NCBI GenBank assembly: GCA_002868905.1 | Contig: PKUA01000025.1 | Coordinates: forward strand, 1 to 64,000 | Reading direction: 5' to 3' | Length of the DNA stretch: 64,000 nt | Origin: Desulfuromonas sp. | GTDB taxonomy: Bacteria > Desulfobacterota > Desulfuromonadia > Desulfuromonadales > Geothermobacteraceae | In this document: positions 3,498 through 29,500 of the stretch, one piece after another | Layout: the number at the start of each line of letters is the position of its first letter | Position numbering within the stretch: position 1 is the first letter of the stretch | The notes under the pieces: generated by a model | What the model saw: only the letters and a program-made list of their open reading frames with translations | Told to the model about the DNA's origin: nothing | The model's database searches: none | Position numbers and translations under genes: made by a program

Positions 3498-5774
3498 TTA
3501 TTCGGCGTCGATCCGGTTGATGAAGACTTCGCGCGGGCGACTGGTGCCATCCGACGGGCCGACGATCCCCTCCTGCTCCATCTTCTCGATCATCCGCGCC
3601 GCACGGTTGTAACCGAGGCGCAGGCGGCGCTGCAGCATCGAGATTGAAGCCTGGCGGGTATCGGCAATGATGGCGAGCGCCTCATCCCACTTTTCGTCGT
3701 ACTCTTCATCCTCGTCCGATGCCGTCGCTTCGGCCGGAGCAGGTTTGAGGATGGAAGGATCGTAGTTGGGATCTCCCTGTTTCTTGAGGAAGTCGACCAC
3801 GCGCTGAACCTCGATCTCGGTGACGAAGGCGCCGTGGATACGTTGCACCACGCCGGTGCCGGGCGGCAGAAACAGCATGTCCCCCTTGCCGAGCAGGTTC
3901 TCTGCACCGATCTGGTCGAGGATGGTACGCGAGTCGGTGCGCGACACCACCTGGAATGACATGCGGGTCGGGAAGTTCGCCTTGATCAGACCGGTGATGA
4001 CGTCGACGCTCGGTCGCTGGGTGGCGAGGATCAGGTGGATGCCACACGCACGGGCCTTCTGGGCCAATCGCGCCACCGATTCTTCGATCTCCCGGCCGGC
4101 GACCATCATCAGGTCGGCCAACTCGTCGACCATGACGACGATATACGGCAAGTGCTGGTGATCGAGCTCCGGTTCAATCTCCGCCAGGTCATCCGTGCCC
4201 TCGGGAGGCAGGGGCTCACTCTGGAGGACTTTGGCCGCGTTGCTCTGGACCTCCTTCTCCTCCTTGGCGATTTTCTTGTTGTACCCCTCGATATTCCGCA
4301 CCCCCTTGTCGGCCAGCAGGGTGTAGCGCCGTTCCATCTCCCGAACCGCCCAGGCAAGGGCCAGGGCAGCCTTCTTCGGATTGGTCACCACCGGCAGCAG
4401 CAGGTGCGGGATCCCCTCGTAGATCGACAGCTCGATCATCTTCGGGTCGATCATGATCATTCGGACATCATTCGGGCTGTGCCGGTAGACCAGGGAGAGG
4501 ATCATGGTGTTGACGGAGACTGATTTCCCGCTCCCGGTGGAGCCGGCGACCAGCAGATGCGGCATCTTCGCCAGGTCGGTGACGGTGGTGCGGCCGAAAA
4601 TATCCTTGCCGAGAGCGAGCGGCAGGATGCCACCGTTTTTGGCATACTCTTCCGCCTGTAGAATGTCCTTGAGGAATATGGTCTCCCGTTCCCGGTTCGG
4701 GATTTCGATGCCGATGACGCCCCGCCCCGGAATCGGCGCGACGATTCGGATCGAATGGGCCGACAGGGCCAGGGTCAGATCATCAACCAGTCCGGCGACC
4801 TTGTTAACTTTGACCCCGGGTGCCGGCAGAAATTCGTACATGGTCACCACCGGTCCCGGCTTGACCTCGACCACTTCCCCCTCGACCCCGAAATCTTTCA
4901 GCTTTTTCTCAAGCAGTCGGGCGTTCATGGTCAGCGATTCGCGATCGATCGGGTTCGCCTGCTCCTGTTCGTGATCGAGCAGGGTGAGGGTCGGTGCATG
5001 GTAGGTTCCGCTCGGCTCGAGGAAGTCGAAGGTCTCCTGGTCGGCAGCCTTCTCGTTCTCTTTTTTCTTTTTGTTCGCCGCTTTGCGGGCAGGCGGTGGG
5101 AGTTGCACCGGTTCGGGATGGACGATGATCGGTCCTTTTTTCTCTGACTTGCCGGTTTTGATCGCCAGTTGCTTTTTCTTCTCCAGGCGTTGTTCGCGCC
5201 GACGCTGGAGGTATCCTCCGAATCGGTCGACCGTCCCTTCGAGGAACAGCACCATGGAGAAGCGCGCTACCAGCATCGAGGTGACAACGAAGAAGACCAG
5301 CAGGATGAGGGTTGCGCCGGTCAAGTTGAAATAATGGAGTAAGGGATCCGCAATCAGTCGACCGACCGCCCCGCCGGCTTCACCGATTTCTTTCTGGCCG
5401 AGGTGCATTTTCTGCACCTGGAGGGCGATCAAGCCATCGAGGGAGAGGATCAGGCCGGCGAAGGCAAACATCTTGCCGAAGCGGACTTTGACATCGCGAA
5501 ATTTGAACAGCCGTAACGCGAACAGGAAACAGGCCAGGGGAAGCAGGATCGCCGGAAGACCGATCAGTTGAAGCAACAGATCGGCCAGATGGGCGCCGAC
5601 CACTCCGCCGTAGTTGTGAATTTCGCCCGGGTGGAGGTTGTTGTTGAAGGAAGGGTCGAAGTTGTTGAAGGAGATGAGGCAGAGAAGGGTATAGACACCG
5701 AAAGCCAGCAGAAAGACTCCGGCAATCTCCTTCTCAAGATGCTCACGAAACAGGGGTTTGGTCGTATCACTCAT
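3498..5774 (-). CDS. ftsK: DNA translocase FtsK/SpoIIIE family
   Basis: A 758-residue membrane-anchored DNA pump that clears chromosome dimers and septum-trapped DNA at division. The N-terminal ~200 residues hold four or five hydrophobic segments. A charged Lys/Glu linker follows, then the motor with Walker A G-S-T-G-S-G-K-S at about residues 409-416 and Walker B around V-M-V-D-E-L-A-D. The winged-helix gamma domain (Q-R-R-L-R-L-G-Y-N-R-A) lies at the C-terminus. I chose ATG 5774 (MSDTTKPL); a TTG at 5813 would add 13 unlikely residues and lacks a better ribosome site. The linker is short compared with E. coli FtsK and like that of many SpoIIIE/FtsK proteins outside enterobacteria. It is the last gene of a minus-strand run with uppP, rnj and plsC. 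Confidence 0.95.
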   Translation of the reverse strand: MSDTTKPLFREHLEKEIAGVFLLAFGVYTLLCLISFNNFDPSFNNNLHPGEIHNYGGVVGAHLADLLLQLIGLPAILLPLACFLFALRLFKFRDVKVRFGKMFAFAGLILSLDGLIALQVQKMHLGQKEIGEAGGAVGRLIADPLLHYFNLTGATLILLVFFVVTSMLVARFSMVLFLEGTVDRFGGYLQRRREQRLEKKKQLAIKTGKSEKKGPIIVHPEPVQLPPPARKAANKKKKENEKAADQETFDFLEPSGTYHAPTLTLLDHEQEQANPIDRESLTMNARLLEKKLKDFGVEGEVVEVKPGPVVTMYEFLPAPGVKVNKVAGLVDDLTLALSAHSIRIVAPIPGRGVIGIEIPNRERETIFLKDILQAEEYAKNGGILPLALGKDIFGRTTVTDLAKMPHLLVAGSTGSGKSVSVNTMILSLVYRHSPNDVRMIMIDPKMIELSIYEGIPHLLLPVVTNPKKAALALAWAVREMERRYTLLADKGVRNIEGYNKKIAKEEKEVQSNAAKVLQSEPLPPEGTDDLAEIEPELDHQHLPYIVVMVDELADLMMVAGREIEESVARLAQKARACGIHLILATQRPSVDVITGLIKANFPTRMSFQVVSRTDSRTILDQIGAENLLGKGDMLFLPPGTGVVQRIHGAFVTEIEVQRVVDFLKKQGDPNYDPSILKPAPAEATASDEDEEYDEKWDEALAIIADTRQASISMLQRRLRLGYNRAARMIEKMEQEGIVGPSDGTSRPREVFINRIDAE

Positions 5775-21790: not shown

Positions 21791-23374
21791 TCACGGTTTG
21801 CGCGGTCGGTCGCGGTGGTGATCGACGATGCAGTAGAAGCCGAACGGTTTCCCGCCGCGATTCTGCAATTGGTGAACTTCGAGCGGACGGACATAGGCGA
21901 TGTCGTTGGGGGCAACGGTGAATTCCTGGCCCCCTTTTACCATAACCCCTTCGCCGCGGACGCCGATGACGACATGCTCATGCAGGTGTTTCTCCAGGCT
22001 GGAATGCCCGCCCGGTTCGATTTCGAAGTAACGCAGATCGAAGGCGGTCTCCTCGCCGAAACGCCCGGTCAACTCCTGGCGCATGATTCCTTTGAAATCG
22101 TCCGTCTCATGCTTGTAGCTCTCTTTATCCCGGCCGCTCCAGGTGTAGTCGCTGAACCGGAGCAGGTCGCTGGGCACCGTCTGAGTCGTCGCGGGTTCGC
22201 GCCATTCGCAGGCGCTGATCGGCTGCTGCTGAGCCAGACGCTGTTCCGGCGCTGTGGCCCGCAGCGCGTCCATGAACTCCCGGGTTCCACTCTCGATATC
22301 GTCGCGCCTCAGAACGTCCCCGCCGACCAGGATGACCGTGTCGGGTCCGTAACGGGCGAAGAGTTCCGGAACCCGGCCGAGATGCAGACCGCCCGCCGGG
22401 CAGGGGAAGGCCGGATTCAATTCCCCCAGCGGGCTGCGCAGGGCCGCGCTGAGCGCCACGCACTCTTCATCGCTGAAATGGAAACGCCCTCCGGCGTTGG
22501 GGAAGATCGAGACGTCGGCCCCGATCAGCCGGAACAGGCTCCCCAGCAGCACGGCGGGGGTCATGCCGTGGTCCCGGTCATGGAAAAATGTCCCGGTCAG
22601 CGCCGGGTGGGCCATAACGGCCAGGTCGTACTCCCGGGCGAGGTGGCGCATGGCGTCGAGTCCGACCAGCATCGGGCCGACCAGGACGCCGCGAACCCCC
22701 TCGCGCACCGCGGTACGGACCTGCTGCTCAAGGATGTCGTAACCGCCGGAGACCATCGGGAAGTAGACCGCGTTGTTGCCGCTGGCGGCGTTGCCACGCG
22801 TGATCGCCTCCTGGCAGCGGGCGACCCTTTCCGCGAAGGGATGGAAGCTCTGGTTGCCGAGGCCGTGGTCATCCTTGATCAGGTCTGCTCCGCCGGCGGC
22901 ATAGGCCCCGGCGATGCGGGCCAGTTGCTCGACCTGAAGGCCGAGGGGCTTGATGGCGCAGCAGGCGAGGGGGCGGCCGCCGATGCCGACCAGTCTGCGA
23001 ATCCCCTCGATTCCGTAGAGCGGGCCGTTGAATGAGTCCAGCAGTGAGTGCGGCAGATCGAGACCGGTGATGCGGATGTTGTCTTTCAGGGAGATGTTGC
23101 CGTAGAGCAGGTTGAACAGCTGGGGGACGGAGAAATCGGCCAGATCGCAGCGGTAGCTGATGACTACGTCGAAACGCTCTTCGCCGAGCGGTGCGATCGA
23201 TTCGACCCGGCCGGGGATGCCGTTGGCAAAGTGTTCCTCCGGGATGACATCGACCGGGACCTCGACGGTCTGTTCAATGGTGATGTCCGCGGCGTGCTGC
23301 TCGATGCTTCGCTGGTCGCGCACGCGGATTTGGTAATGAACGTGGAATCTGTCCCGGACTGCTGGTGACGACAT
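21791..23374 (-). CDS. RuBisCO-like protein (form IV) fused to a C-terminal cupin
   Basis: A 527-residue fusion. Residues ~1-415 are a RuBisCO large-subunit-like fold: N-terminal ferredoxin-like domain, then a barrel with A-I-K-P-L-G-L (one residue shorter than the K-P-K-x-G-L of true RuBisCO, so the second lysine is absent), D-L-I-K-D-D-H-G-L (His where RuBisCO has Glu of K-D-D-E), C-P-A-G-G-L-H and L-V-G-G-D. It should not fix CO2. Residues ~425-527 are a cupin: E-K-H-L-H-E-H and R-P-L-E-V-H-Q-L-Q-N. In Rhodospirillum rubrum, a separate RuBisCO-like isomerase and a separate cupin methylsulfurylase act in turn on 5-methylthioribulose 1-phosphate; fusion here suggests a similar two-step enzyme, but other RLP reactions are possible. 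ATG 23374 has CAGGAG upstream. Confidence 0.85.
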   Translation of the reverse strand: MSSPAVRDRFHVHYQIRVRDQRSIEQHAADITIEQTVEVPVDVIPEEHFANGIPGRVESIAPLGEERFDVVISYRCDLADFSVPQLFNLLYGNISLKDNIRITGLDLPHSLLDSFNGPLYGIEGIRRLVGIGGRPLACCAIKPLGLQVEQLARIAGAYAAGGADLIKDDHGLGNQSFHPFAERVARCQEAITRGNAASGNNAVYFPMVSGGYDILEQQVRTAVREGVRGVLVGPMLVGLDAMRHLAREYDLAVMAHPALTGTFFHDRDHGMTPAVLLGSLFRLIGADVSIFPNAGGRFHFSDEECVALSAALRSPLGELNPAFPCPAGGLHLGRVPELFARYGPDTVILVGGDVLRRDDIESGTREFMDALRATAPEQRLAQQQPISACEWREPATTQTVPSDLLRFSDYTWSGRDKESYKHETDDFKGIMRQELTGRFGEETAFDLRYFEIEPGGHSSLEKHLHEHVVIGVRGEGVMVKGGQEFTVAPNDIAYVRPLEVHQLQNRGGKPFGFYCIVDHHRDRPRKP

Positions 23375-23515
23375 GCCGGCTCCTGTCAGGTTGTGCTGGG
23401 TGCTCAAATTACCATGTCGGCAGCACACGGACAAGAGAGATGGGACGACAACACAAATCGGTTTCGTCTGGTATGCTTCCACTGTGGAAACAACACTGAC
23501 GGAGACCAATTCCTC

Positions 23516-25534
23516 ATGAAAGTCGCCCTTGTCTTTCCGCCATTTTTTCATGCCTCAATGTACAACCTCCCGCCGCTGGGTCTGGTCCTGCTCGGGACCA
23601 TGTTGCAGCGGTCCGGGCATCAGCCGGTTCTGCTCGACCAGGTGTTGGAGGTGCGCAAGGGGCACCTGCCCCTCTCGAATGAGATTTACCGGCATGCGGC
23701 CAGGGAGATCCTCGCCACCCGACCGGACGTGGTCGCTTTCAGCGCCCAGTGCGCGACCTATCCGCCGACCCTGCAGATCGCCCGCCTGGTGAAACGGGAA
23801 TCGTCCGGAATTCGGGTGATCATTGGCGGACACAACGCGACGTTTGTTGCGCGCCAGACTCTGGAGCGTCACCCGTACGTCGATGCCGTCGTTCGGGGCG
23901 AGGGGGAGAAGACGTTGCCGGCCTTGATCGATGCCTGGCAGGATGGCGCCAGCGGCGCCGGTATCCTCGGTGTGACATGGCGAGATGGTGACCAGATCGT
24001 CGAGGAAGAGGATCGAGGCCTGATTCCGGATTTGGCAGATCTGCCGTTCCCCGATTATTCTCTCGCCCCCGATCTGGAAAGCTATCGCGAGGCGTGTCAA
24101 CTGCCGCGCAGCATCGCCATTTTGGAGGTCGGTCGCGGCTGCACGCACTCCTGCGTTTACTGCAGCGAGGCAGCTCTCTGGCGTCGGCGCTGTCGGACCT
24201 ACCCGGTCCCACGTCTGGTCAAGGAGATGCTGATGCTGCGCGACACCCAGGGGGCGGACTGTTTCCTGCTCGCCTACGATCAGTTCACTGCCGATCGCCG
24301 CTTCGTCAACGAGTTTTGCGAGTCGATGATCGAAGCCGGTCTGCAACGGCAGAGCTGGTACTGCATCTCCCGACTCGATACGGTCGATCGCGACCTGTTG
24401 AGGTTGATGCGTGAGGCCGGTTGCGAATCGATGTGCTACGGCATTGACTCGGGGTCGGAGCGGACCCTCGCATTTATCCGCAAGAAAATCGACGTCTCGA
24501 TATTGCAGCAAAGGGTGACGGAGACGACGGAGCAGGGGTTGGTGCCGACCCTCAGTTTCGTTGTCGGCTTCCCCGAGGAGGAACGAAGCGATGTCGATGC
24601 CACACTCGAACTGGCCTTGATGACCGGGGTGCGGGGGAACAGCAACCCGTTGCTGCAGATCCCGACCGTGCTGCCGGGGACCGAGTTGCACCACCGTTAT
24701 CTCCCTGACCTGGTGCGTCAGGTCGACTCCTACTTTGCCCTTGGCATTGAGTTTTCAGGGGAGGGAGAACGGCTGCCCGAGGACGAGGCAATGATTGATG
24801 CCGACCCGGAACTGTTCAGCTCCTTTTACAACCTGCCGTGTGCCGGCCTCGAACTCTATGAACTCGACCTGGTGGCAAACTATTTCCCCTTATTGATCAA
24901 CCTCTTCCCGAAATCGTTTCTCCTGCTCTGCAAGGCTCTCGACGAGTCCCCATCCCGCCTGTTCGAAGAATTCCTCGATGCTGCGGACGCCGCCGAGAGG
25001 AGCGGTCCGGAGCTGACACCGCAGGCTTGCTACCGGCATTTTCCGACCTTCGCCACCGAGCGATTTTATGCCGAGTCGACCTGGAGACACCTCCCTGATG
25101 TGGTGCGTTATGAAACCTGCTGCATCGAGGCTGCCCGCCCCGGGCCTCCCGCGGCGACCGGCAATGTCGATTTGAGTGAAAGCGCAAATGTCGGACCGCA
25201 GCGTCGCCCTTCGATCGTGCTGGATCGTTTCGACTTCGATCTGCCGTTCATCGTGACCGATATGCAGCAGGGGTATTTCCACGACAGATATGGCAGGCAG
25301 GAGAGCTGGCTGGTATTTCACCAGGTCGGCGAACAGCTTGAAGTCTCGGCCATCAATCAATTCGGACACGACCTGCTTGACCTTTGCGACGGCTCCGTTA
25401 AGCTTGACGCCATTGTTGACGCCCTTTATCGCCAATACGGTTCAGGAATGCCTTGCGGGGAATTTGCCGCCGATTGTCGTGAAGCGGTTGCAACCTTTGA
25501 GCAGATGCTGTTGTTGCAATCTTCAATATCTTGA
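23516..25534 (+). CDS. B12-binding radical SAM protein with PqqD-like C-terminal domain (putative RiPP maturase)
   Basis: A 672-residue enzyme. Residues 1-140 form a cobalamin-binding Rossmann domain (V-A-L-V-F-P-P start, L-P-P-L-G-L-V-L-L-G, I-G-G-H-N-A-T). The radical SAM core has the CX3CX2C cluster motif C-T-H-S-C-V-Y-C at residues 209-216 and Y-G-I-D-S-G-S-E near 310. The final ~100 residues (N-Q-F-G-H-D-L-L-D-L-C-D-G-S and the following helices) look like a PqqD/RRE fold, which binds leader peptides of ribosomal natural products. A 46-residue repeat peptide gene starts 26 bases downstream. B12-radical SAM enzymes commonly methylate unactivated carbons; the chemistry here is unproven. 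ATG 23516 is chosen for M-K-V-A-L-V-F-P-P; a GGAG lies about 11 bases upstream. Confidence 0.85.
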   Translation: MKVALVFPPFFHASMYNLPPLGLVLLGTMLQRSGHQPVLLDQVLEVRKGHLPLSNEIYRHAAREILATRPDVVAFSAQCATYPPTLQIARLVKRESSGIRVIIGGHNATFVARQTLERHPYVDAVVRGEGEKTLPALIDAWQDGASGAGILGVTWRDGDQIVEEEDRGLIPDLADLPFPDYSLAPDLESYREACQLPRSIAILEVGRGCTHSCVYCSEAALWRRRCRTYPVPRLVKEMLMLRDTQGADCFLLAYDQFTADRRFVNEFCESMIEAGLQRQSWYCISRLDTVDRDLLRLMREAGCESMCYGIDSGSERTLAFIRKKIDVSILQQRVTETTEQGLVPTLSFVVGFPEEERSDVDATLELALMTGVRGNSNPLLQIPTVLPGTELHHRYLPDLVRQVDSYFALGIEFSGEGERLPEDEAMIDADPELFSSFYNLPCAGLELYELDLVANYFPLLINLFPKSFLLLCKALDESPSRLFEEFLDAADAAERSGPELTPQACYRHFPTFATERFYAESTWRHLPDVVRYETCCIEAARPGPPAATGNVDLSESANVGPQRRPSIVLDRFDFDLPFIVTDMQQGYFHDRYGRQESWLVFHQVGEQLEVSAINQFGHDLLDLCDGSVKLDAIVDALYRQYGSGMPCGEFAADCREAVATFEQMLLLQSSIS

Positions 25535-25543
25535 TTCATAGAT

Positions 25544-25557
25544 GAAAGGAGGTGATC
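25544..25557 (+). promoter_or_regulatory. Near-full-length Shine-Dalgarno sequence of the repeat-peptide gene
   Basis: GAAAGGAGGTGATC can pair with 13-14 nucleotides of the 16S rRNA 3' tail, far more than neighbouring genes have. GGAGG ends 7 bases before ATG 25560, which decides that start over the in-frame ATG at 25542. It predicts very strong translation of the peptide relative to the enzymes, as expected for a substrate. Confidence 0.85.
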
Positions 25558-25559
25558 AG

Positions 25560-25700
25560 ATGCTGCAGATCAAGCGAGTCGAGAAACGTGTTTCGAGTGC
25601 CGCGCAATGCCACGGGCCATCCTGCCATGCGCCGAGTTGCCACGCCCCGGCCTGTCACGCGCCGGCGTGCCATGCACCGGCCTGCCACGGACCGGCCTGA
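25560..25700 (+). CDS. Putative RiPP precursor peptide with six Cys-His-x-Pro-x repeats
   Basis: A 46-residue peptide. Residues 1-16 are a short basic leader (contains I-K-R-V-E-K-R-V) and residues 17-46 are six uninterrupted pentapeptides: CHGPS, CHAPS, three CHAPA and CHGPA. Cysteines are at 17, 22, 27, 32, 37 and 42. The six 15-bp units differ at synonymous positions, so the protein pattern is kept by selection rather than by recent duplication. There is no signal peptide. It lies 25 bases after the B12-radical SAM gene, which ends in a peptide-recognition-like domain, and before a methyltransferase and a dipeptidase. I read it as the substrate of those enzymes. An alternative is an unmodified metal-binding peptide. 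I cannot match it to a named RiPP class. Confidence 0.8.
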   Translation: MLQIKRVEKRVSSAAQCHGPSCHAPSCHAPACHAPACHAPACHGPA

Positions 25701-25710
25701 TGCGAGCTGA

Positions 25711-25739
25711 TTGACAATTTTTCAGTTAAATTTTAGATT
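25711..25739 (+). promoter_or_regulatory. Possible promoter ahead of the methyltransferase gene
   Basis: TTGACA, a 17-base spacer and TAGATT lie in an AT-rich stretch just after the peptide gene. It could drive the methyltransferase and dipeptidase genes separately from the peptide. Confidence 0.4.
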
Positions 25740-25772
25740 CGGGCGATGATCATCAGGGTCATCGCCCGAATC
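25736..25772 (+). terminator. 14-bp hairpin between the peptide and methyltransferase genes
   Basis: Perfect 14-bp arms (gattcgggcgatga and complement) with a 9-base loop, followed only by TTAT. With no long T-tract it may be a partial terminator or a 3' stabiliser that sets a high ratio of peptide mRNA to downstream enzyme mRNA, as in many RiPP operons. Confidence 0.6.
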
Positions 25773-25805
25773 TTATGACCGTTCTGCCGGAGTTTGCCAA
25801 GGCGC

Positions 25806-26726
25806 ATGCGTAAAGAGATCGCAGAATTGTTGATTTGCCCTGCCTGTTTGCCGAAGGAGAAACCTCTGACGTTGCAGGTGAGCAAGGCGGTGGGTGACGA
25901 AGTGTTCGACGGACGGCTGGTCTGTCACGCCTGTCATCACCGCTATACGATCAGGGACGGAATCCCGATCCTGTTGCCGTGGCAGCAGTTGAGCCAGGCG
26001 AGTGACCAGCAGTATTCCGATGACCGGACCGTCTCATCCTACCTCTGGAGTCATTACGCTGACCTGTTCGGCGACAAGCATGCTCATGTCGCCTACCGCC
26101 GTTTCGCCGAGATGCTGCAGGACGGGCCGGGGATCGCCCTCGACCTCGGCTGTGCCGTCGGGAGGTTGACCTTCGAATTAGCCGCCCGTGGTGGTCATGC
26201 GTTCGGTATCGATCGATCTTTTGCCCTGCTGTCCCAGGCCCGGCATCTCGCCCGGGATGGTCACCTTGCGTTCGACATGACGGTGGAGGGAGAACTTACC
26301 GAACCTCGCCGTGTCGAACTCCCTCCCGAGTTGCGGCGCCGGCCGTGTGAATTCATGGTGGCCGATGCCATGTCACTGCCGTTTCCGGCTTCTGCAGTAC
26401 GCAAAGCCGCGTCGGTCAATCTGCTCGACAAACTCCCGTCTCCCCGACGTCACCTCGACGAACTGAATCGGGTCATGGCTGAATCTTTTGCCGAAGTCGT
26501 GCTTGCCGACCCGTTTTCCTGGTCAGAGGAGGTGGCCCCGCGCACCGCCTGGTTGAGCGGGACCGAAGAGACCGGTGTCGGACGCGAGGTTCTGCCGCGA
26601 ATATTCCGCGACGAGATGACACCCGCCTGGGAGGTGGTTCAGACCGGTGCCATCCCCTGGACCATCCGCACCCATCGCAATCACTACGAGCTGATCCAGA
26701 GTGACTTTTTCGTCGCCAGTCGTTGA
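25806..26726 (+). CDS. Zinc-ribbon (Trm112-like) class I SAM methyltransferase
   Basis: A 306-residue protein. The N-terminus has a zinc ribbon, C11-P-A-C14 and C40-H-A-C43, in a Trm112-like context (L-L-I-C-P-x-C ... R-D-G-I-P-I-L-L). A class I methyltransferase domain follows, with the SAM loop A-L-D-L-G-C-A-V-G-R near residue 113 and an acidic residue after G-I-D-R. It lies in the same direction as the repeat-peptide gene and overlaps the dipeptidase gene by 26 bases, so it probably belongs to the peptide pathway. Substrate unknown. ATG 25806 is chosen; a TTG at 25794 would add four residues. Confidence 0.8.
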   Translation: MRKEIAELLICPACLPKEKPLTLQVSKAVGDEVFDGRLVCHACHHRYTIRDGIPILLPWQQLSQASDQQYSDDRTVSSYLWSHYADLFGDKHAHVAYRRFAEMLQDGPGIALDLGCAVGRLTFELAARGGHAFGIDRSFALLSQARHLARDGHLAFDMTVEGELTEPRRVELPPELRRRPCEFMVADAMSLPFPASAVRKAASVNLLDKLPSPRRHLDELNRVMAESFAEVVLADPFSWSEEVAPRTAWLSGTEETGVGREVLPRIFRDEMTPAWEVVQTGAIPWTIRTHRNHYELIQSDFFVASR

Positions 26727-27669
26727 TAGCTCGCTGGTCGATGGCCATGTAGACCTGCCGTACGCATTGGAACGGATGTCTCTGCCCGCTTTCGCCGCCC
26801 TGCAGGACGGCCCTGTGACGACAGAGACTTTAAGCGGGAGCAGGGTGGAGCTGATCACCTGCGCGCTCTATTGTCCCGACCGGTTTAATGGCCCCGAATC
26901 CGCCTGGCCTCAGTTGAACCGTTTGTTAAACCTGGCCCAATCCGGGTTGGGTCCTCTCCGACCGCTGCCCGACGTCTCGTGTCTGACCAGGCCCTGGGCC
27001 GGGGGGGCGACGTCATACCAGCTTCTGGTGGAAAACGGTGATGGCTTGCTTGAGGCCGACCTCGACAGTCTGCAACAGCAGGGGGTTCGGATGGTTGGAT
27101 TAACCCATGCCGGGTGTAATCGCCTTGCCGATGGTAACGGGGTGGCAAAGCCCGGGGGGCTGCGACCGGAGGGGCGGAGCCTGCTGCGCGAGCTCGAGCG
27201 GCGTGGCTGGGTCGTCGATCTGGCCCATCTTGCGGAGCCGGGGTTTTGGGAAGTGTTGGATGGCTATGCCGGTCCGGTCATGACATCTCATACCGGTCTG
27301 CGGTCGTTCTGTGACCGGCCAAGGAACCTGAGCCGGGAGCAGCTCCGGGCTCTGGTCGAGCGGGGAGGCGTTGTCGGTCTGGCGCTCGCCCCGGAGATGT
27401 TGACCGGTGACGAAGCGGGAATCGACGATGTTGTGGGTCAGCTCGAATGGATGTTGGAGCAGATCCCTGCCGAGATGGTTGCCATCGGCTCTGATTACTG
27501 TGGGTTCGACGGTGCCTGCCGCGGACTGGAAGATTACCGCAATTGGCGGACTCTGGGAGAGATGCTGTCAGAAAGAGGGTTCTCCGAACAGGTCGTACGG
27601 GGTATTCTCGGCGGTAACTGGCTTAATTTTTACCGGCGTTGGCTCTCAGACAACGCCGGTGCGTGCTAG
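26701..27669 (+). CDS. Peptidase family M19 (membrane/renal dipeptidase-like)
   Basis: A 322-residue di-zinc peptidase. All expected metal-site motifs are seen: D-G-H-V-D-L-P near residue 14, the bridging glutamate in L-V-E-N-G, L-T-H-A-G-C-N-R-L-A-D-G, V-D-L-A-H, S-H-T-G-L-R and G-S-D-Y-C-G-F-D-G, plus G-G-N-W at the end. M19 enzymes cleave dipeptides, including some with unusual or D-residues. No signal peptide is seen, so it is likely cytoplasmic. GTG 26701 overlaps the methyltransferase gene by 26 bases. In this setting it could trim the modified peptide or hydrolyse small peptide products; this is inference. Confidence 0.88.
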   Translation: MTFSSPVVDSSLVDGHVDLPYALERMSLPAFAALQDGPVTTETLSGSRVELITCALYCPDRFNGPESAWPQLNRLLNLAQSGLGPLRPLPDVSCLTRPWAGGATSYQLLVENGDGLLEADLDSLQQQGVRMVGLTHAGCNRLADGNGVAKPGGLRPEGRSLLRELERRGWVVDLAHLAEPGFWEVLDGYAGPVMTSHTGLRSFCDRPRNLSREQLRALVERGGVVGLALAPEMLTGDEAGIDDVVGQLEWMLEQIPAEMVAIGSDYCGFDGACRGLEDYRNWRTLGEMLSERGFSEQVVRGILGGNWLNFYRRWLSDNAGAC

Positions 27670-28773
27670 AAGCTCAACCGTACGGTCGATCTCTTCATCC
27701 GTATTGTAAAAGTGGGGTGAAAACCGCAGTTTCCCATCCCGCAGAGAGTGGAAAACTCCCGCCTCCATCAAGGTTTGGTAACTCCTTTCGGGTTCCGGAA
27801 CCTCAACAGAATAAATTCCGGAGCGGTGCCCTCCCTCGATCGGAGTGGGCGATGCCAGACCGAGTTCGGTGCAGTGTCCCGCCAATTGATCGATGAGACC
27901 AAAAACCCTGTCGCGAATGTTTTCAACCCCGATGTCCAGAAGCAGTTCCAACGCTGCACCGACTCCGTAAATCCCTGGCAGGTTCAGCGTCCCCGGCTCG
28001 AAGCGGGCTGCGTCTTCCCGCAGTTCGAAATTGAGTTGGAAGTTTTCCGGCTCGACAACACTTTTCCAACCGACCAGCGGTGGACGGAGCCGGGCTCGTT
28101 GCCCCGGTTCGAGGTAGAGCAGCCCGATACCCATCGGACCGAGGAGCCATTTCTGGGCTCCGGCGGCCAGAAAGTGAATACCGCACTCTTTGACGTCCAG
28201 CGGCATGATCCCCAGACTCTGGATGGCGTCGACGGCGAAGCGGATGTCCCGTTGCGCGCACCAGCGACCGATAGCCGGCAGGTCGACAGCGAAGCCGGTG
28301 GCATAATCGACGCTGCTCAATGCCAGCATGCGAACGTTGGGCGTCCAGGCCGCCTCTAGTTGCTCCGGTTCGATACGACCATTTTGCCGGGAGACGGGGC
28401 AGAGTTGTACACCACGTTCCTTCAGGTGCATCCAGGGATAGACATTGGCCGGGTAGTCCGGAACGGCAAACATCACCGCGTCACCCTGCTGCCACGGGAA
28501 GGACTCGGCGATGGTGGCGAGACCGCTGGAGGTGTTACCGACGAAAGCGATGTCATCCACTCCGGCGCCGATTAAGGTCGCCGCCAGCTTTCGTACCTTG
28601 TTGATCTGCTTCAGCCAGCGGGGGTAGCCATGACTTGCCTCGGTGGCAACGTCTCGTACATGGGCGGCCATGGCGTCCGCCGCTTTGGTTGAAAGGGGAG
28701 CGATTGCCGCGTGATTGAGGAAGATATGCTGCTCCGTGACCGGAAACAGAGACCTCAGTTCATGCCAGTGCAT
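27646..28773 (-). CDS. Class V aminotransferase (cysteine desulfurase/isopenicillin epimerase-like PLP enzyme)
   Basis: About 375 residues. It begins M-H-W-H-E-L-R-S-L-F-P-V and has I-F-L-N-H-A-A-I-A-P-L-S, V-G-N-T-S-S-G-L for phosphate binding, V-D-A-I-Q-S-L-G with the PLP aspartate, and the Schiff-base lysine in A-A-G-A-Q-K-W-L-L-G-P. It lacks the C-terminal cysteine loop typical of IscS/SufS, so sulfur transfer is not certain. The 3' end overlaps the M19 gene by 24 bases on the opposite strand. ATG 28860, with AAAGGTGG upstream, would add 29 basic residues and is the main alternative start. Participation in the peptide pathway is possible but not shown. Confidence 0.82.
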   Translation of the reverse strand: MHWHELRSLFPVTEQHIFLNHAAIAPLSTKAADAMAAHVRDVATEASHGYPRWLKQINKVRKLAATLIGAGVDDIAFVGNTSSGLATIAESFPWQQGDAVMFAVPDYPANVYPWMHLKERGVQLCPVSRQNGRIEPEQLEAAWTPNVRMLALSSVDYATGFAVDLPAIGRWCAQRDIRFAVDAIQSLGIMPLDVKECGIHFLAAGAQKWLLGPMGIGLLYLEPGQRARLRPPLVGWKSVVEPENFQLNFELREDAARFEPGTLNLPGIYGVGAALELLLDIGVENIRDRVFGLIDQLAGHCTELGLASPTPIEGGHRSGIYSVEVPEPERSYQTLMEAGVFHSLRDGKLRFSPHFYNTDEEIDRTVELLARTGVV

Positions 28774-29172
28774 ACGGTTATCCTGTCCCGGGAGTCTTGA
28801 GAGGGGAGTTGGAGATAACTTCCTTTTCCTGTCGGTTTTTTGGCTGGTCATATGGTCCATTGTGCCACCTTTGCGCCAAATTGGCCATGAGTATGGCCAG
28901 ACCGGTTTTCCAAATTGTATTCGGATCATGGCAGGGGTGTCTTTTTTGCTTGGTTATTCGCTAGGGAATAAAATTGGGGTTGAATTGTAAGTCTTTGAAA
29001 ATGCGGATTGTTTTGGAAGGTTAGCGTATGCCAATCGTGATAAAAAACATGGTTATTGATACGGTGTTTGAAAAAAACTTGTTTGAAGTCAATGGTTTAT
29101 GGCCCGAATTTGGCAAGTTGAAAGCGGCGATCACCAAACAAGGCACAAACCTGTTCCAGAAAGGAGTCAGCA
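28774..29172. other. Intergenic region, no convincing gene
   Basis: AT-rich. It contains a 7-bp inverted repeat (tggccat / atggcca, 28882-28899) just upstream of the alternative PLP-enzyme start, and possible promoters in both directions. A 100-codon open frame from 29028 runs through it but loses coding character after about 50 codons and overlaps the small ORF at 29173 out of frame. Confidence 0.5.
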
Positions 29173-29265
29173 ATGTTTACAAGTTTTGTTTCCGGACTCG
29201 TGTTCTATGGTGGGATCGTTGTTGTTGCTCAGGTCGTCGGCGTGACCCGCAAACTGATCCGTTGA
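29173..29265 (+). CDS. Small single-span membrane protein, 30 residues
   Basis: The start has a good ribosome site (AAAGGAG, 6 bases before ATG). The protein is one hydrophobic helix (F-V-S-G-L-V-F-Y-G-G-I-V-V-V-A-Q-V-V-G-V) followed by a basic tail T-R-K-L-I-R, the form of small bitopic membrane proteins that tune larger membrane complexes. Hairpins at 29299 and 29338 may end the transcript. Partner unknown. Confidence 0.55.
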   Translation: MFTSFVSGLVFYGGIVVVAQVVGVTRKLIR

Positions 29266-29298
29266 TGTCGTCTTCCCTTGATGGAAGTCGGACATTTA

Positions 29299-29319
29299 TG
29301 CGCTCACCGAATGAGCGCA
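29299..29319 (+). terminator. Hairpin after the 30-residue ORF
   Basis: An 8-bp perfect stem (tgcgctca / tgagcgca) with a 5-base loop, followed by ATTATT. A weak terminator candidate for the small membrane protein gene. Confidence 0.45.
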
Positions 29320-29337
29320 ATTATTCATGAGAGCATG

Positions 29338-29366
29338 CAAGGGCTGCCCGATTCGGGTAGTCCTTG
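29338..29366 (+). terminator. 13-bp RNA hairpin with two G-U pairs
   Basis: Arms at 29338-29350 and 29354-29366 pair over 13 positions, two of them G-U when read as plus-strand RNA, with a 3-base loop, followed by TTGCTTT. The wobble pairs imply that the plus strand is the transcribed one. Confidence 0.45.
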
Positions 29367-29464
29367 TTGCTTTGCGGCAGCAGTTTCACAATATGTCGGG
29401 CGTTGCTGCTTTCTGATTGTCGTGGGAATTAGCCAAATCGGTGGGGAGGGATGTTGTCATAAAG

Positions 29465-29500
29465 GAGACCCGCGGCGCTGACCAGGCTACCGCGGGTCTC
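29465..29500 (-). terminator. 11-bp hairpin downstream of the PilZ gene
   Basis: Perfect arms gagacccgcgg / ccgcgggtctc with a 14-base loop. On the minus strand it is followed by CTTTAT, so it may end the PilZ transcript. Confidence 0.5.

Follow-up and report, generated by a model that had tools for sequence, protein, structure and literature searches.

What does a bacterium make from a 46-residue peptide whose last 30 residues are six tandem Cys-His-x-Pro-x (CHxPx) units, encoded directly behind a B12-type radical S-adenosylmethionine (SAM) enzyme? The peptide lies in a 64,000-nucleotide stretch of Desulfuromonas sp. (contig PKUA01000025.1, labeled C24 in a genome of 3.3 Mb; hereafter the window), in which the gene order is radical SAM enzyme, peptide, hairpin, methyltransferase, M19 dipeptidase and a convergent pyridoxal phosphate (PLP)-dependent enzyme. 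In light of the comparative data presented here, the peptide and its enzyme very likely constitute a pathway of the ribosomally synthesized and post-translationally modified peptide (RiPP) type, and its product is probably a small sulfur or selenium molecule. More specifically, and with confidence evenly balanced, we propose an anaerobic peptide-scaffold route to 5-thiohistidine/ovothiol from the Cys form of the peptide or to 5-selenohistidine/ovoselenol from a selenocysteine (Sec) form.

The precursor gene (25560..25700, plus strand, as are all features below unless stated otherwise) starts exactly 25 bases past the radical SAM stop codon (25532-25534) and is preceded by a Shine-Dalgarno sequence, AAAGGAGGTGA, read at 25545..25555. 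It encodes the leader MLQIKRVEKRVSSAAQ (25560-25607), followed by the units (CHGPS)(CHAPS)(CHAPA)3(CHGPA) (25608-25697) and a stop codon (25698-25700), such that both the open reading frame (ORF) with its six repeats and the 25-base spacing are as reported in a first-pass annotation made from the sequence without database searches. A chance origin of the repeat was considered and rejected: in 60 first-order Markov versions of the window, at most one CHxPx unit occurred in a row.

Radical SAM loci were collected from 10 additional genomes within the order and, by alignment scan, from 45 loci of the GTDB collection, five of them shared, for 51 distinct loci in all; a scan of genome contigs with the single radical SAM protein gave no match, whereas the alignment scan gave the 45. 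According to their titles they belong to Desulfuromonas, Geobacter, Desulfobacterales, Syntrophobacteraceae, Desulfarculales and other deltaproteobacterial metagenome-assembled genomes (MAGs), lineages made up largely of anaerobes. A peptide of the CH or UH type (U, Sec) is found just 3' of the enzyme gene in 48 of the 51 loci, 34 of the Cys type and 14 with an in-frame TGA at the core Cys, where L063 is counted as peptide-bearing even though the final regular expression missed its peptide. The three loci lacking one are L052, whose contig ends 81 bases on, L049, with none within 1.7 kb, and L072, with a remnant only; in the last (4470-4540) the radical SAM frame continues into GPPESPVRR, the Sec-peptide tail with ESPVRR at its end, as if leader and core had been deleted, through either a real deletion or an assembly error. 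The same linkage is apparent across 395 genomes of the phylum, 13 of which are matched by the radical SAM profile and 11 by a DNA pattern of three CH units, all 11 among the 13 and the other two featuring the TGA form; a reversed control pattern gave 0 matches among those listed. This near-perfect association supports the first-pass proposal of an undescribed RiPP system built on a B12-type radical SAM enzyme, and the expectation that homologous peptides sit beside that enzyme family. The leader pattern ML.[IV]..VEKK is kept with few exceptions. Cys-type peptides carry anywhere from 4 to 12 core units (CHAPA 105, CHAPS 60, CHGPA 16, plus CHAPT, CHGPS and others).

The TGA form, found in relatives and overlooked in the first-pass annotation, offers a second line of evidence. 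TGA takes the place of the core Cys codon at 13 loci, all in a single radical SAM clade, typically as VVPT-TGA-HAP[TS]ESPVRR, and L038, from the window's own order, presents an independent case, PVPQ-TGA-HGPS-stop (UHGPS). Over the ten codons past the TGA, 2 first, 0 second and 7 third codon positions are variable, and the H, A and P codons that follow vary only synonymously. A selenocysteine insertion sequence (SECIS)-like hairpin, ATCTCC-GGTNC-GGAGAT, has its loop starting 20 nt past the TGA in the Sec clade, and its L038 counterpart, AGGTCC-GGTTC-GGACCT, with the loop 19 nt past the TGA and beyond the peptide's own stop, differs by two compensatory pair changes; the SECIS claim rests on this comparison because minimum-energy folding recovers the hairpin in only part of the sequences. 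SelB, the Sec-machinery marker tested, scores over its cut-off in G013 and in 12/13 Sec-clade genomes (13/14 together, with one MAG lacking a match), and the Cys and Sec labels change twice on a tree of 43 radical SAM sequences. Given the synonymous drift, the compensated hairpin, SelB and the two label changes, the TGA form looks like a selenocysteine-containing peptide, with two independent Cys/Sec switches. At one locus (L070, 9045-9700) a multi-Cys peptide (SPCHAPG...PCHAPG...) and a Sec peptide occur together.

The methyltransferase (25806..26726) combines a Trm112-like zinc ribbon with a SAM domain of the OvoM/OvsM/OvoA-C type, as assigned by profiles and a structure model. In the model (predicted local distance difference test, pLDDT, 92) the OvoA C-domain, OvsM and OvoM are matched at Z 24.3-24.8, followed by RlmA (17.9) and carnosine N-methyltransferase (17.5), and in profile comparison the same three give E values of 7e-33 to 2e-34 against 1e-13 for the next. 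By profile and predicted fold the enzyme is thus nearest to thio- and selenohistidine N-methyltransferases. It is present in all 13 system genomes, even where its gene is remote from that of the peptide (the Sec clade, for instance), against 32/382 others, a contrast that, like those for the dipeptidase and PLP enzyme below, is inflated by kinship of the genomes and uncorrected. The distal copies of the Sec clade (L122-L131) are followed, about +950 to +1050 away, by a CysQ-like 3'(2'),5'-bisphosphate nucleotidase at 10/10 loci, one of them confirmed by NCBIfam. In genomes without the radical SAM gene (L141-L159), a molybdopterin oxidoreductase of ~690-740 residues, resembling thiosulfate reductase or formate dehydrogenase, follows the methyltransferase at about +950 in 16/20 genomes inspected; the pair possibly represents another thiol-related pathway.

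Formate dehydrogenases have the motif of the peptide core, [CU]H[AGS]P[AST] (25608-25697), at their active site. Could the core then mimic that site ([CU]H[GAS]P[ST]) for Mo/W-enzyme maturation, or the Sec form have been copied from an fdh gene segment? A formate dehydrogenase-like protein in L153 does have CHAPS at its cofactor site, and the methyltransferase's molybdopterin-associated copies point the same way, yet no formate dehydrogenase or molybdopterin gene is found among the conserved neighbors of the peptide, the oxidoreductases linked to the methyltransferase have CF, CH or CY at the site and so do not keep the motif, and the set of radical SAM enzyme, dipeptidase and PLP enzyme is left unexplained. 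We consider such an origin highly improbable.

The M19 dipeptidase (26701..27669; Pfam PF01244 at 9e-55, alignment and co-occurrence) has its start codon inside the methyltransferase end, with an overlap of 26 nt, and the first-pass description of a zinc-ribbon methyltransferase overlapping an M19 enzyme was therefore accurate. Its family retains H16, D18, E111, H176, H197 and D265 in alignment, which we take to be the expected metal-site residues, and the subfamily occurs in 13/13 system genomes against 1/47 chosen others. That sole exception, L155 (G364), has methyltransferase, M19 and molybdopterin oxidoreductase genes adjacent to one another, and neither the radical SAM gene nor a CH peptide was found there. 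Convergent to the block, and overlooked in the first-pass annotation, is a conserved member of it on the minus strand (27646..28773; probably starting with the ATG at 28773, with the ORF open as far as 28929), a class-V PLP enzyme related to SufS and EgtE whose subfamily, at at least 490 bits, is found in 10/13 system genomes against 1/382 others. A Lys in a KWL motif is invariant across the family and is proposed to be the PLP Lys; the sequences end in R.SPHFYN, a stretch that has no conserved Cys in the alignment, so the enzyme resembles a C-S lyase more than a desulfurase. Several Desulfobacterales peptides have no M19 or PLP gene nearby, and elsewhere in those genomes M19 is present in all tested and the PLP gene in most.

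These partners bear directly on what the peptide is for. The 4 to 12 near-identical units of the Cys form, together with the plausibility of Cys-His pairs as metal ligands, would suit a modified repeat peptide that is itself the product, metal-binding or redox-active, and whose leader is merely trimmed by peptidases, largely as the first-pass annotation had it. We nevertheless judge this improbable: 12/14 Sec-type peptides feature one core only, the dipeptidase found in every system genome belongs to a family whose known members act on dipeptides, and no conserved exporter was found among the neighbors. The dipeptidase, the C-S-lyase-like PLP enzyme, the thio-/selenohistidine type of the methyltransferase and the mostly single-core Sec relatives are the reasons for which we prefer a small sulfur or selenium amino acid, such that the repeat-peptide product is not supported and metal binding via the Cys-His pairs fits less well.

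The remaining component is the modifying enzyme itself (23516..25534; 672 aa), identified by its Pfam B12-binding and Radical_SAM domains, its structure model and its orthologues, with the CxxxCxxC motif at residues 209-216. Its model (pLDDT 92) adopts the fold of CysS, AprD4, MgmA, OxsB, TsrM and TokK (Z 23-31). The C-terminal region (residues about 446-671; window about 24851-25528) matches TglI of the TglHI complex at Z 14.9, the chain being taken as TglI from its length, as well as NGO1945 at Z 13, and weak Pfam PqqD matches occur in 19/43 members (best 1e-5); no RiPP recognition element (RRE) was recovered when the C-terminus by itself was used for a profile search of the PDB. On account of the TglI-like fold and the PqqD matches, the earlier suggestion of an RRE-like C-terminus is supported at the level of predicted structure. 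The nearest NCBIfam model is ApyD (NF050148), at 260.8 bits and short of its cut-off of 750, while SbtM (TIGR04167) is not among the 25 families listed of 29.

Might this enzyme, then, be an ordinary cobalamin-dependent C-methylase that acts on the Cys or His of each unit, with the methyltransferase N-methylating His and the product a methylated peptide or dipeptide? Its structural neighbors CysS, TokK, MgmA and TsrM are methylases, and the nearest NCBIfam relative, ApyD, beta-methylates Tyr in a RiPP. Such an activity would, however, leave unexplained both the strict Cys/Sec-His pair with its exchange of sulfur and selenium and the association with a thio/selenohistidine-type methyltransferase, a C-S-lyase-like enzyme and a dipeptidase. 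We therefore regard C-methylation as unlikely, if the most serious of the alternatives weighed here.

The thiohistidine route is proposed because every known ovothiol step has a candidate enzyme in the system. In its full form, to which we assign slightly less than even confidence, it would make ovothiol and ovoselenol independently of O2 from a ribosomal template: the radical SAM enzyme would cross-link an encoded Cys-His or Sec-His pair, which would then be released as thio- or selenohistidine. From the genes, their linkage, the pattern of Cys/Sec exchange and the predicted folds we infer the following chemistry. The RRE would bind the leader ML.I..VEKK, allowing the radical SAM enzyme to couple each Cys sulfur, or Sec selenium, to an imidazole carbon of the following His, as an anaerobic counterpart of OvoA. 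The peptide would then be cleaved to a cross-linked Cys-His dipeptide, which the M19 enzyme would split to S-(5-histidyl)cysteine, and the PLP enzyme would break the Cys C-S bond and free 5-thio- or 5-selenohistidine. Addition of a ring N-methyl by the methyltransferase would be the last step, and the Sec-His form would yield selenohistidine, the substrate of OvsM.

Several observations weigh against this proposal. The product and the enzyme activities are predictions from sequence. Those relatives of the radical SAM enzyme that have solved structures are mostly C-methylases (TokK, CysS, MgmA, TsrM) or else OxsB/AprD4, and we know of none that couples sulfur with imidazole. The methyltransferase reaches 99.5 bits against TIGR04345 (OvoA C-terminal/4-mercaptohistidine N-methyltransferase), the cut-off of which is 170; only distant homologues of it are found in the peptide-bearing G161 and G162, and genomes lacking the system encode it as well, frequently next to a molybdopterin oxidoreductase. 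No member of the PLP subfamily was found in three of the 13 system genomes. Finally, the route would be redundant in the window genome under oxygen, because OvoA is also encoded there: a full-length bifunctional OvoA lies at L092 (G000:C39:16917-18233), its C-domain sharing 30% identity over 191 residues with the methyltransferase. In the proposal's favor, this is the one full-length OvoA over the cut-off in 28 system genomes, the other 27 having no match above it; aerobic and anaerobic ovothiol routes might thus exist side by side in the window genome.

In the known ovothiol route, O2-dependent Cys-His coupling by OvoA is followed by C-S cleavage by the PLP beta-lyase OvoB and N-methylation by the OvoA C-domain or OvoM (PMC12631010). 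Each of these three steps has a candidate counterpart among the parts of the window system, whose methyltransferase is nearest to those of the ovothiol and ovoselenol systems (OvoA, OvoB, OvoM; OvsA, OvsM), but where that route uses free amino acids and O2, the window system features a ribosomal peptide, a radical SAM enzyme, a dipeptidase and anaerobe lineages. The 3-thiaglutamate pathway (PMC9016710) offers a precedent, in that a sulfur amino acid is built on a scaffold peptide and finally released from it. With that pathway (TglA, TglHI) the system shares the scaffold principle and the TglI-like fold, whereas its modified residue is encoded rather than added from cysteinyl-tRNA and its modifier is a radical SAM enzyme rather than an MNIO; no pearlin-type tRNA-dependent peptide aminoacyl ligase was recognized among the conserved neighbors, to which that search was limited. 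In the related Geobacter, SbtA/SbtM reportedly constitute a thio(seleno)oxazole RiPP system whose radical SAM enzyme takes Cys or Sec as its substrate; the window system differs in its B12-type enzyme, its Cys-His/Sec-His cores, its OvoM-type methyltransferase, its dipeptidase and its PLP enzyme. Aminopyruvatide (ApyD) likewise involves a B12-radical SAM enzyme containing an RRE within a RiPP cluster, but its precursor is unrelated and its P450 and MNIO are not seen among the conserved neighbors here. CefA (NF038108), a Cys-every-fifth RiPP peptide, shares the spacing of Cys residues, although the window peptide scores 15.8 bits and its relatives 14.9 and 16.3, below the cut-off of 30, and we found no paper on it. 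In gliotoxin biosynthesis a pair of dipeptidase and PLP C-S lyase (GliJ, GliI) likewise frees thiols.

No NCBIfam model (June 2026) scores over its cut-off for the peptide, radical SAM, methyltransferase or PLP gene, and no description of the system was found in the open literature, a scope that excludes most subscription papers. Among known systems, the nearest in kind are the selenium RiPPs of SbtA/SbtM, 3-thiaglutamate and aminopyruvatide. Literature searches combining thiohistidine with radical SAM, or on selenohistidine or Cys-every-fifth peptides, returned no paper, and titles and abstract openings on ovothiol or 5-thiohistidine with ribosomal peptides, or on selenocysteine radical SAM RiPPs, mention no such pathway. 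OvoA, the known ovothiol coupling enzyme, requires oxygen; if correct, the proposal would give anaerobes a means to make an OvoA-type imidazole thiol or selenol from an encoded peptide. It would also provide a rare natural example of a RiPP core in which selenium replaces sulfur and, to our knowledge, the first case of a Sec codon serving as the selenium source for a small-molecule metabolite. The proposal names a peptide, a coupling enzyme, a dipeptidase, a lyase and a methyltransferase, each of which can be tested separately.

Some features of the locus stand apart from this argument. A hairpin with a 17-bp stem and no T run follows the peptide gene (25735..25773; stem search against shuffles), and a stem of at least 9 pairs is found 3' of the peptide in 37/48 loci against 79/960 shuffles. 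A consensus terminator scan placed the sole terminator-like site inside the radical SAM gene, and an Rfam search of 23000-29500 gave no match. Upstream, on the minus strand (21791-23372), a RuBisCO-like protein related to MtnW-type enolases carries a C-terminal cupin fusion and is not conserved near the system. In L053, L063 and L066, a gene resembling an M3 oligopeptidase, identified by eye from the sequence, adjoins the block.

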